A program made the position numbers and the translations under genes. Shown piece by piece: positions 1 through 3,332 of a DNA stretch of 64,000 bases (its first letter is position 1; each line of letters begins with the position of its first letter). Source of the DNA: an uncultured Geobacteraceae bacterium (lineage in GTDB: Bacteria; Desulfobacterota; Desulfuromonadia; Geobacterales; Pseudopelobacteraceae); the NCBI GenBank assembly GCA_903876875.1, contig CAIRBT010000073.1, positions 1 through 64,000 on the forward strand. Reading direction: 5' to 3'. Below the pieces are notes generated by a model. That model was given only the letters and a program-made list of their open reading frames with translations. It did no database searches and had not been told where the DNA came from.

Positions 1-137
1 GCGAAAATTCGGCTGGGCGAGAGCAGATTTCGACGATTTTGAAGGTCAATAGTCGTTCTATTGACCGAAAAAGCGGTGAAATATGATCCGTTCAGACGGA
101 TTTGCAGCAGATTTCTCCTAAGTCCGACAGGCTCCTA
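1..137 (-). repeat. Partial MITE-like element, copy 1 (inverted)
   Basis: This stretch is the reverse complement of 3167-3303, and I find one base difference (position 58, C here). It ends at 137 with the same 21-bp terminal inverted repeat as the complete copy; the other end lies before the window. Internal palindromes (GGTCAATAG with CTATTGACC at 44-66, and a dyad around ATCCGT/ACGGAT at 85-102) predict a folded structure. It encodes nothing convincing. With the copy at 3167-3332 it brackets the hipBA/DUF6471-fic region in inverted orientation. The stop codon of hipA lies in its terminal repeat. Confidence 0.85.
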
Positions 138-1379
138 GGAGAGTCTTCTGATTTCTTTATCGCAGGAGTTTGATATTAGCTCATTCAACCGGTATAGGCT
201 GTCACATTTATAGGGACCAAATGTTTCTTTAAATAGTTTTAGTCTGACGCTCTGAATTTTGTTGGCGATTATCAGCACTCTTGATATTAGAAACTTTGGT
301 TTTATTTTTATTTCTTCCGCCAAAGCTTCCCAGTGTTTTCGTTGAATTGCCTCAGGAGCACTTTCTCCTCCAATCCCCATAGCAAGGCCTTCCGCCAACC
401 CAAAGTGCCCATATATCCTTGTAGAAATAAGATCATAAAAAGGAGCTAAAATTGGACCTTGTAGTAATAGCAGAAAGGACACATTTTTTCCATGTGCGTC
501 AGAATTTCCTACTAAGAAATTGAAAATCAACCAATCGAGAATAGATAATACATCTTTTCCTGATCTGCTACTTTTCGTCCGTATTAAATTAACGCATTGG
601 ACAAAATTTGGGCCACCTTCGTTTTCGTATTTATATTCAGGAGAAATACTTAATGCCTGGCAAAAATCCTCTTGATGAAGTCTTTTTATCCCGTGGTCAA
701 AGACTGCGCGGTCATATCTCTTAATTACAAAAACGAGCACTCCCTCAAGTTCATATATAAATGAATGCGGGACATTAAGGCCTATCTCGCCTGCAAGTGC
801 CATACAGAACGCCTCATTTTCAACTGTACCATCCAAGACTTCTATAGGCGGCTTTATAATATAATTGCTTGGTGCACCTCCATGAGTGAGATAAAATTTC
901 TCCTCAGAAAAATAAACAGGAAGTTTCTTCTGAGCTCCCGCAAGTGAAAGTCTAAATCCGATCTCACCTGCAAGGAGCGGTCTTTGCGGAAGTTCCTTTA
1001 TTATTTTCGATAATTCTGTGGTACTCAAAGGTGTATATGCCTTCTCTTCGGATAATCTTACACCCTCAGGGTACAAAGACACCGCTCCTGCGCAATCACC
1101 TCCTATTTTCTCCAACAGACCAAAATCATTCTGTAGAGAGACTCCTAAATTTCTTGCAACAACTTCTCGTATTTTTTGCTCTGGTAAAAGGTTGGCAAAA
1201 AAGGCATGTGGTTCATCGTCCAGATACGGTTCATCACGTATCGGGATGGAAAGAGACAACGGGATCTTAGATGTGTTTATCCAGTTCGTTTCATACTGGA
1301 AGCAAAACCTCTTCCTCTCATCAAGCCAAAGATGGCCAACTACCTCATTGTCTATTAACACGATTAGTTTAGTTATCAT
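135..1379 (-). CDS. hipA: HipA-type serine/threonine kinase toxin
   Basis: A 414-residue HipA-family kinase. In this family, HipA phosphorylates glutamyl-tRNA synthetase or other targets and causes growth arrest unless bound by HipB. Visible motifs are the N-terminal subdomain, the loop serine in RLSLAGAQKKL (Ser145, equivalent to the autophosphorylated serine of E. coli HipA), the catalytic GNSDAHGKN (Asp294, Asn299) and the metal-binding YDLIST (Asp316). The catalytic core therefore looks intact. Its ATG overlaps the hipB stop by 4 bases, so the two are translationally coupled. The TAG stop (135-137) is the last three bases of the MITE terminal repeat, so the natural C-terminus may have been trimmed or replaced. 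At 414 residues it is slightly shorter than E. coli HipA (440). The family assignment is firm; the substrate is unknown. Confidence 0.93.
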   Translation of the reverse strand: MITKLIVLIDNEVVGHLWLDERKRFCFQYETNWINTSKIPLSLSIPIRDEPYLDDEPHAFFANLLPEQKIREVVARNLGVSLQNDFGLLEKIGGDCAGAVSLYPEGVRLSEEKAYTPLSTTELSKIIKELPQRPLLAGEIGFRLSLAGAQKKLPVYFSEEKFYLTHGGAPSNYIIKPPIEVLDGTVENEAFCMALAGEIGLNVPHSFIYELEGVLVFVIKRYDRAVFDHGIKRLHQEDFCQALSISPEYKYENEGGPNFVQCVNLIRTKSSRSGKDVLSILDWLIFNFLVGNSDAHGKNVSFLLLLQGPILAPFYDLISTRIYGHFGLAEGLAMGIGGESAPEAIQRKHWEALAEEIKIKPKFLISRVLIIANKIQSVRLKLFKETFGPYKCDSLYRLNELISNSCDKEIRRLS

Positions 1380-1609
1380 TCATCATCCTTTGCTGTCCAA
1401 CCCCTTGTATTTGCATGTATTTCGATACCCAAACAGGCTGTGACCTGCAAGACTTTATTCAATCGGACTGATTCTTTTCCATTTTCAAGCGCCGAAAGAA
1501 ATACATGACTTACTCCGCATATTGCTGCCGCGTCATGAAGAGTTAGGCCATCCTCTTTTCGCTTTTTTCTGATGATCAACCCTAAGCTCTCAGATGTTTT
1601 AATTTCCAT
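1376..1609 (-). CDS. hipB: HipB-type HTH antitoxin
   Basis: A 77-residue Xre/HTH_3 protein. The helix-turn-helix spans about residues 8-65 (LGLIIRKKRKEDGLTLHDAA then CGVSHVFLSALENGK). It is encoded first and overlaps hipA by ATGA, the standard order for hipBA. HipB antitoxins bind operators in their own promoter and neutralise HipA. The ATG follows GGAG at a 6-base spacing. Four similar 14-bp dyads lie upstream (1641-1804), a likely binding array for this protein. That autoregulation is inferred from E. coli hipBA, which also has four operators. Confidence 0.92.
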   Translation of the reverse strand: MEIKTSESLGLIIRKKRKEDGLTLHDAAAICGVSHVFLSALENGKESVRLNKVLQVTACLGIEIHANTRGWTAKDDE

Positions 1610-1640: not shown

Positions 1641-1804
1641 TCAGCGTTCGTTTACTATATCACCCAACAAGACAGAAAAGAAATATAAATTCAGTGTTCG
1701 TTTACTTTTGACGATTGAATTGGCAAAACATTGGAAATTATAAACGATCGTTTACAATAGGGACTTAGAAGGGAATAACGGCATAAATATTCAACGATCG
1801 TTTA
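1641..1804. promoter_or_regulatory. Four-site operator array with 50-bp period upstream of hipBA
   Basis: Four related 14-bp sites occupy 1641-1654, 1691-1704, 1741-1754 and 1791-1804, so each starts exactly 50 bases after the previous one. The third is a perfect palindrome, TAAACGATCGTTTA. The fourth is TCAACGATCGTTTA. The first two are TCAGCGTTCGTTTA and TCAGTGTTCGTTTA. All keep the right half-site CGTTTA. Site 1 begins 32 bases upstream of the hipB start. The likely ligand is HipB. Sequences between the sites are not repeated, so this is not a simple tandem duplication. Confidence 0.75.
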
Positions 1805-2058: not shown

Positions 2059-2334
2059 ATGAAAACGCCTCGGTGCAAAAACATCGTGAATGTTGGTTTA
2101 AACGACAAGGCAAAGCAGGTTTTAAAAGCCGAGCTTGCAAAGCGTGGAATTTCATATCAGAAGCTTGCCGATCTGCTTAACGAGCAGGGGTATAAGCTCA
2201 CAAAGCTGGCGCTTGACAATCGTATGGCACGAGGTGCTTTTTCTGCCGATTTTCTTTTTGATTGTTTGCGGGTAATCGGTTGCGAACAGTTGTCGATTCT
2301 TCCGAAGAAAAGCTCTGTTGAGGATAGCAAGTGA
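2059..2334 (+). CDS. DUF6471-family small protein, possible antitoxin/regulator
   Basis: A 91-residue basic protein. The segment from about residue 12 to 80 (KAKQVLKAELAKRGISYQKL onward, then DFLFDCLRVIGCEQL) matches my recollection of DUF6471, which has a helix-turn-helix-like layout. The ATG follows AGGAG. It lies directly upstream of the Fic gene (36 bases) and shares its promoter, the usual place for an antitoxin or autorepressor. The Fic protein carries its own inhibitory motif, so this protein may be mainly a transcriptional regulator. No experimental function is known to me. Confidence 0.7.
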   Translation: MKTPRCKNIVNVGLNDKAKQVLKAELAKRGISYQKLADLLNEQGYKLTKLALDNRMARGAFSADFLFDCLRVIGCEQLSILPKKSSVEDSK

Positions 2335-2370
2335 TGTTTACCAGAATAAAAATGGGACAGGTTGGCTGCT

Positions 2371-3123
2371 ATGAACTATGAAAATCGGCTGTCAGATAAC
2401 AGCATACTGCAAGCAAGGATCCGGGCACACCGACCGCTCGATACATATGAAATAAAGCAACTGAAGGAATATTACCGAATAGGTTTGACTTGGTCGAGCA
2501 ACGCTCTCGAAGGGAACAGTCTTACCGAGAGTGAAACCAAAGTGGTTCTAGAAGATGGTATCACCATTGGCGGGAAGCCGATGAAAGACCATTTTGAGGC
2601 TATCGGTCACAGTGAAGCTTTTGATCTGCTCTACAAGCTGTCAGATGGTCAGGACATCACAGAAGCTGACATTCTTGGATTACACCGACTATTCTATTAC
2701 CGAATTGACACGGAATCTGCCGGAAAGTATCGGGAACGGAACGTTATTATAACCGGAACTGACTTCACACCTCCGACGCCAACTGCTGTTCCGCTTGCTA
2801 TGCAAGAGTTTATAGGCAACTTGCCTGCAATACGGAAACTTCATCCAGTTGAATATTCAGCCATGCTTCACCTGAAATTTGTCACCATTCACCCCTTCAT
2901 TGACGGGAACGGTAGAACTGCACGGTTGCTGATGAATCTTGCCCTTTTGCAGGCAGGGTATCCCATTACAGTCATTCCTCCCATAATCCGTGGCGACTAT
3001 ATCTCTGCCCTGCGGGATTCCAACAAAGGTGACAACAAGCCGTTCATTGACTTCATCTCCTGCTGTGTGTGGGAAAGCCAGAAAGATTATATTCGCCTGC
3101 TGGAAAGCCTTGACCGGAAATAA
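2371..3123 (+). CDS. fic: Fic-domain protein adenylyltransferase, class II
   Basis: A 250-residue Fic protein. Fic enzymes transfer AMP (or other phosphate-containing groups) from nucleotides to target hydroxyls. The complete core motif HPFIDGNGRTAR is at 174-185, with catalytic His174 and Asp178. The inhibitory-helix motif SNALEGN is at 43-49, with the glutamate that blocks ATP gamma-phosphate binding. An inhibitory helix N-terminal to the Fic core defines class II (self-inhibited) Fic proteins. An in-frame TTG at 2362 is a possible alternative start; ATG 2371 was chosen, but its ribosome site is weak. It is likely co-transcribed with the preceding gene. The target is unknown. Confidence 0.9.
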   Translation: MNYENRLSDNSILQARIRAHRPLDTYEIKQLKEYYRIGLTWSSNALEGNSLTESETKVVLEDGITIGGKPMKDHFEAIGHSEAFDLLYKLSDGQDITEADILGLHRLFYYRIDTESAGKYRERNVIITGTDFTPPTPTAVPLAMQEFIGNLPAIRKLHPVEYSAMLHLKFVTIHPFIDGNGRTARLLMNLALLQAGYPITVIPPIIRGDYISALRDSNKGDNKPFIDFISCCVWESQKDYIRLLESLDRK

Positions 3124-3166: not shown

Positions 3167-3332
3167 TAGGAGCCTGTCGGACTTAGGAGAAATCTGCTGC
3201 AAATCCGTCTGAACGGATCATATTTCACCGCTTTTTCGGTCAATAAAACGACTATTGACCTTCAAAATCGTCGAAATCTGCTCTCGCCCAGCCGAATTTT
3301 CGCGACGATTCCCTAAGTCCGACAGGCTCCTA
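3167..3332 (+). mobile_element. MITE-like element, complete copy 2
   Basis: A 166-bp non-coding element bounded by perfect 21-bp terminal inverted repeats (3167-3187 and 3312-3332, starting TAGGAGCCTGTCGGAC). The outermost TA on each side could be a TA target duplication, as for Tc1/mariner/IS630 elements. It carries internal palindromes. It is the inverted partner of the copy at 1-137, from which it differs at one visible base, implying recent movement or gene conversion. No transposase is in the window. The family assignment rests only on the TA flanks. Confidence 0.8.

Follow-up and report, generated by a model that had tools for sequence, protein, structure and literature searches.

Palindromic operators spaced 50 bp apart upstream of hipBA characterize an entire HipBA clade

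The hipBA operon near the beginning of the window (the whole stretch of 64,000 nucleotides analysed here, from an uncultured Geobacteraceae bacterium) is preceded by four near-palindromes of 14 bp each, which start at 1641, 1691, 1741 and 1791 and thus follow each other in steps of exactly 50 bp. Such an array is a property of the whole HipBA clade and is not peculiar to the locus in the window. Judged from sequence comparison, the sites probably constitute an autorepression array in which the 50-bp period would result from contacts that each operator-bound HipBA complex makes with the next. The features of the locus are as follows.

135..1379, minus strand: hipA, 414-aa Ser/Thr kinase toxin, Couple_hipA and HipA_C domains, 4-bp overlap with hipB
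1376..1609, minus strand: hipB, 77-aa antitoxin, HTH_3 (PF01381)
1641..1654, minus strand: predicted operator 1 (proximal), TAAACGAACGCTGA as read on the hipB strand; it shares its first base with the end of the predicted -10
1654..1662, minus strand: predicted extended -10, TGATATAGT, with TATAGT at 1659-1654, which runs one base into operator 1; read by eye, -35 poor
1691..1704, minus strand: predicted operator 2, TAAACGAACACTGA on the hipB strand, 50 bp upstream of operator 1
1741..1754, minus strand: predicted operator 3, TAAACGATCGTTTA, a perfect palindrome
1791..1804, minus strand: predicted operator 4 (distal), TAAACGATCGTTGA on the hipB strand

On the plus strand the sites read TCAGCGTTCGTTTA (1641-1654), TCAGTGTTCGTTTA (1691-1704), TAAACGATCGTTTA (1741-1754) and TCAACGATCGTTTA (1791-1804). 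The initial annotation had described four 14-bp sites with an exact 50-bp period, and the statistics confirm it: the matches in the six pairwise site comparisons total 70/84, while the top sum in 2000 shuffles of the intergenic region, with any period from 15 to 130 allowed, was 53, so that none of the 2000 reached the real score and a chance origin of the period is ruled out. The 36-bp linkers share a mutual identity of 25-53%, and because they are unrelated a recent tandem duplication is not the source of the period, as the same annotation had argued. Its figure of about 4.8 helical turns per step is also borne out (50 bp is 4.76 turns at 10.5 bp/turn). A fifth site was looked for 50 bp beyond the distal operator at this locus and was not found.

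The genes have the characteristics of a HipBA type II toxin-antitoxin module, that is, a kinase HipA with the domains and residues of the family, a small overlapping HTH antitoxin encoded just upstream and, as far as the sequence indicates, palindromic operators in the hipB promoter. HipA of the window exceeds the cut-offs for both PF07804 and PF13657 and passes the N-terminal domain model TIGR03071. Its identity to E. coli HipA is 31%, and the equivalents of S150, K181, D309 and D332, which we take to be the catalytic residues of the E. coli protein, are conserved in the alignment. Its close relatives are found in Geobacter and other Geobacterales-like genomes. HipB scores 61.6 bits against TIGR03070 (couple_hipB/Y4mF-type), below the curated cut-off of 71.65 for that family; TIGR03070 and TIGR03071 (Y4mF/couple_hipB-couple_hipA) are the best-matching named families for HipB and the HipA N-terminus, and these models cover proteins, not operators.

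The four sites are almost certainly operators of the HipB dimer encoded next to them, since their position, their palindromy, their uniqueness in the genome and the way they covary with the recognition helix of HipB all point to it; the same four lines of evidence support the earlier description of the sites as HipB-type operators. CGWTCGTTTA occurs in the 64-kb window in the array only (0.23 expected), and the 14-mer with at most one mismatch has two copies outside the array in the whole 3.9-Mb genome, which is about control level. A genome-wide HipB regulon is ruled out, these other matches being stray. Across the clade the operators vary widely, with half-sites such as TAAACG, TATACG, TTCCCG, TTACCG and TGTCCG around a CG-NN-CG core, and the mean identity within one array is 0.84 between sites and 0.35 between linkers. 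Column R72 of HipB, which lies in the recognition helix, shows the top covariation with half-site bases 2 and 4 and the second with base 3, by scores that are inflated by relatedness among the sequences. Where this column holds V, A or P (15 loci), base 4 is A in 13, and where it holds R or K (79 loci), base 4 is C in 77. A top covarying column within the recognition helix is what binding of HipB to these putative operators predicts.

Conservation was analysed in the upstream regions of loci whose HipA is 40-94% identical to that of the window. The loci were gathered by their identity to two queries, the HipA of the window and that of E. coli, with other Hip families thinly sampled. It had been proposed in the initial annotation that the spacing rather than the sequence should be compared among homologous loci, and the spacing passed this comparison strongly. 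A three-site scan blind to the period (all periods 17-109 bp) chose 48-52 bp as best in 99/122 clade upstream regions, against 9/102 shuffled regions and 3/102 stretches of hipA coding DNA. About one fifth of the clade loci do not give the 48-52 bp period, by decay of sites or by true loss, and since the period and site scans require palindromes, decayed sites may escape. When the best pair of similar palindromes was taken regardless of spacing, 84 of 103 upstream regions had it at lags of 48-51 or 98-100 bp (1.9% of shuffles at 49-51 bp). Site calling blind to spacing gave neighbour distances of 48-51 bp in 139/167 cases (50 bp in 81 and 49 bp in 49), and none of these 167 distances in the clade arrays was one helical turn off (39-40 or 60-61 bp). 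Farther out, at 50-150 bp from the promoter on its upstream side, the distal steps keep to 49-50 bp as strictly as the proximal step does.

The pattern was repeated in 20 more distant loci (HipA 42-46% identical), which were fetched after it had been seen. With HipA clustered at 60% the spacing is found in 22/27 clusters, and at 50% (single linkage) in 4/7. In the closest relatives (HipA 84-94% identical) bases have changed but the 50-bp step remains, with four sites (L003), three (L005 and L006) or two (L004); arrays in the clade usually have three sites. If membership of the clade is taken, as here, to require two or more adjacent palindromic operators at a distance of 48-51 bp ahead of hipB, the window belongs to it with all four sites at 50 bp. 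The clade extends over about ten phyla, by labels many of which are taken from the names of MAG records, and includes Pseudomonadota, Thermodesulfobacteriota, Myxococcota, Bdellovibrionota, Acidobacteriota and Verrucomicrobiota, with further members in Kiritimatiellota, Elusimicrobiota, Omnitrophota, Planctomycetota and Melainabacteria.

A different step is found in the E. coli-type clade, where the same scan, run on E. coli K-12 and on 29 loci from the window's own bacterial class, chose 26-28 bp in 27 of the 30, which gives a ruler of 27 bp. Regular 27-bp arrays are seen in loci L158-L187, with E. coli K-12 as the irregular exception. In a tree of 130 HipA proteins the 50-bp and E. coli-type groups are fully separate sister clades (SH-aLRT 100), the groups being labelled from the HipA search and not by period locus by locus. 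The E. coli K-12 operon resembles that of the window in that hipB comes first and the HipA kinase second, and in its four palindromic operators upstream of hipB, which are bound by HipB or HipBA and of which the proximal one lies near hipB. The comparison with E. coli in the initial annotation thus holds for the number of operators, but their spacing there is an irregular 28/39/28 bp and their sequence is TATCCN8GGATA, whereas the window has 14-mers centred on CG-NN-CG at 50 bp and a HipA of the sister clade. The E. coli-type operator (TATCCN8GGATA at 27-28 bp) is accordingly not what the window contains. A third, divergent HipA group (L126, L131-133 and L204-217, including the second copy in the same genome, on contig 169) shows weak lags of 50 and 100 bp. 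L126 is its sole convincing locus (26/28), where ATCATTGCAGTGAT and ATCACTGCAGTGAT are separated by a 50-bp step and lie about 510 and 460 bp from its end.

The relation of the array to the promoter is also recurrent. In the window the extended -10 at 1662-1654 overlaps the first base of operator 1, so that the proximal operator is predicted to be centred near the transcription start and the others near -50, -100 and -150. A sigma-70-like -35/-10 pair ending on the proximal operator was found in 74% of 58 three-site arrays (control 3%); the usual position of the -10 hexamer is such that it begins 5 or 6 bases ahead of the proximal 14-mer. The middle linker has weaker promoter-like signals (47%), and A/T-rich runs flank the operators of the clade. 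The 27-bp clade likewise shows a tendency, less uniform, for the -10 to be placed immediately ahead of an operator, and for this reason the promoter relation looks common to both clades with a different step.

By its position and by homology with E. coli HipBA, HipB, both alone and as HipB2HipA2, would repress its own operon through these operators, and RNA polymerase would be blocked when the proximal one is occupied. Neighbouring complexes would touch via the HipA subunits that they carry, so that the protein assembly itself would fix the step of 49-50 bp; the strict distance, the lack of one-turn alternatives and the equally strict distal steps suggest such a contact. The tight 49-50 bp without distances one turn away fits rigid contact between neighbours better than flexible looping. 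Contact between HipA subunits would make binding cooperative and keep the toxin inactive on the promoter, and the operon would switch sharply as HipB is degraded. At 4.7-4.8 turns, neighbours are about 90-120 degrees apart on straight DNA, which counts against direct contact since it would need bending or a suitable interface, and at 4.76 turns per 50 bp the arrangement would be helical and not one-sided.

In E. coli the binding of HipB to its four operators is cooperative, the operator is bent by 70 degrees in the HipA-HipB2-HipA complex (PMC3376134), and dimerization of HipA within promoter complexes is reported (PMC7029023, citing Schumacher 2015). The clade of the window would use the principle of E. 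coli HipBA with a longer step. Speaking against cooperativity, the three evenly spaced operators of Legionella HipBST may be filled independently, unlike those of the cooperative E. coli HipB (PMC10653801). It is possible, and we put it forward as a tentative extension, that each HipBA lineage has its own ruler (27 bp, 49-50 bp, about 71 bp in HipBST) because the complexes polymerize on promoter DNA as a regular filament, whose geometry would be the period and would have evolved in near-whole-turn steps. The steps of 27, 28, 39, 49.5 and 71 bp in Hip families correspond to 2.57, 2.67, 3.71, 4.71 and 6.76 turns, and the fractions of 0.57-0.76 are suggestive; a strict helical-phase ladder across the families is not claimed, as the independent values are too few and 27 bp is off.

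Other explanations of the period have to be weighed against contact between complexes. The promoter could set the spacing, because a core promoter, which takes up about 30 bp from -35 to -10, has room in the 36-bp gap that separates the two proximal operators, so that two HipB dimers would frame RNA polymerase and the extra copies would be redundancy. The promoter-like elements in the last linker, with a -10 that ends on the operator, agree with this, as do to a lesser degree those of the middle linker, but the distal steps lie far upstream of the promoter and are equally strict, and the E. coli-type clade has its next operator 27 bp away in spite of a similarly placed -10; we consider this explanation unlikely. 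Somewhat less likely still is the idea of the initial annotation that the DNA is wrapped. Here HipB alone would bend its operators, and a bend recurring at each 50-bp step, with a rotation of about -86 degrees from one to the next, would produce a left-handed superhelix, possibly closed by HipA. The 70-degree bend known from E. coli operators, the A/T-rich runs beside the operators and the regular phase, which would yield a regular coil, are in line with wrapping, but bending alone, although it needs a fixed phase, would also accept a distance changed by a full helical turn in either direction, and no such distance is seen. Nor do the linkers offer help of the IHF type, which is ruled out by IHF-like sites in 2/139 linkers against 0.8 expected.

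It is very improbable that the array belongs to another regulator, such as the DUF6471 protein (2059-2334), or consists of functionless repeat remnants. This second small and possibly DNA-binding gene does face the same intergenic region, but the array tracks hipBA across phyla, covaries with the recognition helix of HipB and abuts the hipB promoter. Contact between HipBA complexes is thus the explanation that we prefer.

The surroundings contain several further elements. The small DUF6471 protein is followed by a Fic-domain protein (together 2059-3123, divergent from hipBA), and the two are perhaps a second toxin-antitoxin-like pair with a common intergenic region. In the space between hipBA and the divergently oriented DUF6471 gene, just past the distal operator, there is a near-perfect 26-bp inverted repeat with a 1-nt loop (1830-1882, 96%, single-copy in the genome), possibly a bidirectional terminator or a cruciform. 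A 137-nt inverted repeat (99%, 1-137 and 3167-3303) flanks the whole block of hipBA, DUF6471 and Fic, and the contig begins inside one copy. The repeat is a member of a dispersed family, for which there are 57 genomic hits, some 40 reaching 90% identity or more. Copies also resemble their own complement (about 71%), which would suit a MITE or a large palindromic element.

Arrays of several Hip operators are already known from E. coli, Caulobacter and Legionella HipBST. The HipBST operon of Legionella pneumophila resembles the present clade in its three even, HipB-bound operators with a spacing conserved between species, and differs in being tripartite and limited to one genus, with 18-nt sites and 53-bp gaps (about 71-bp period) that are kept in nearly all species (PMC10653801). 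Caulobacter hipBA1 and hipBA2 likewise have three operator sites or inverted repeats, but the main texts give no family-wide period (PMC8545095, PMC7029023); one of the groups likens the site intervals to the higher-order complexes of E. coli (PMC7029023). We found no report of a clade-wide ruler of 49-50 bp or 27 bp in the open literature, which is weak evidence of absence, as subscription papers lie mostly outside it.

According to a leading structural model, storage of HipA on its own promoter explains the raised persistence caused by hip mutations in E. coli, yet the array of E. coli is irregular. A spacing that is strict throughout a clade and has outlasted the operator sequence would be an evolutionary readout of contacts between complexes on DNA. 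Two operators 50 bp apart offer a ready target for structure determination, with linker length as a simple handle, and the spacing alone could locate operators in uncharacterized hipBA loci.
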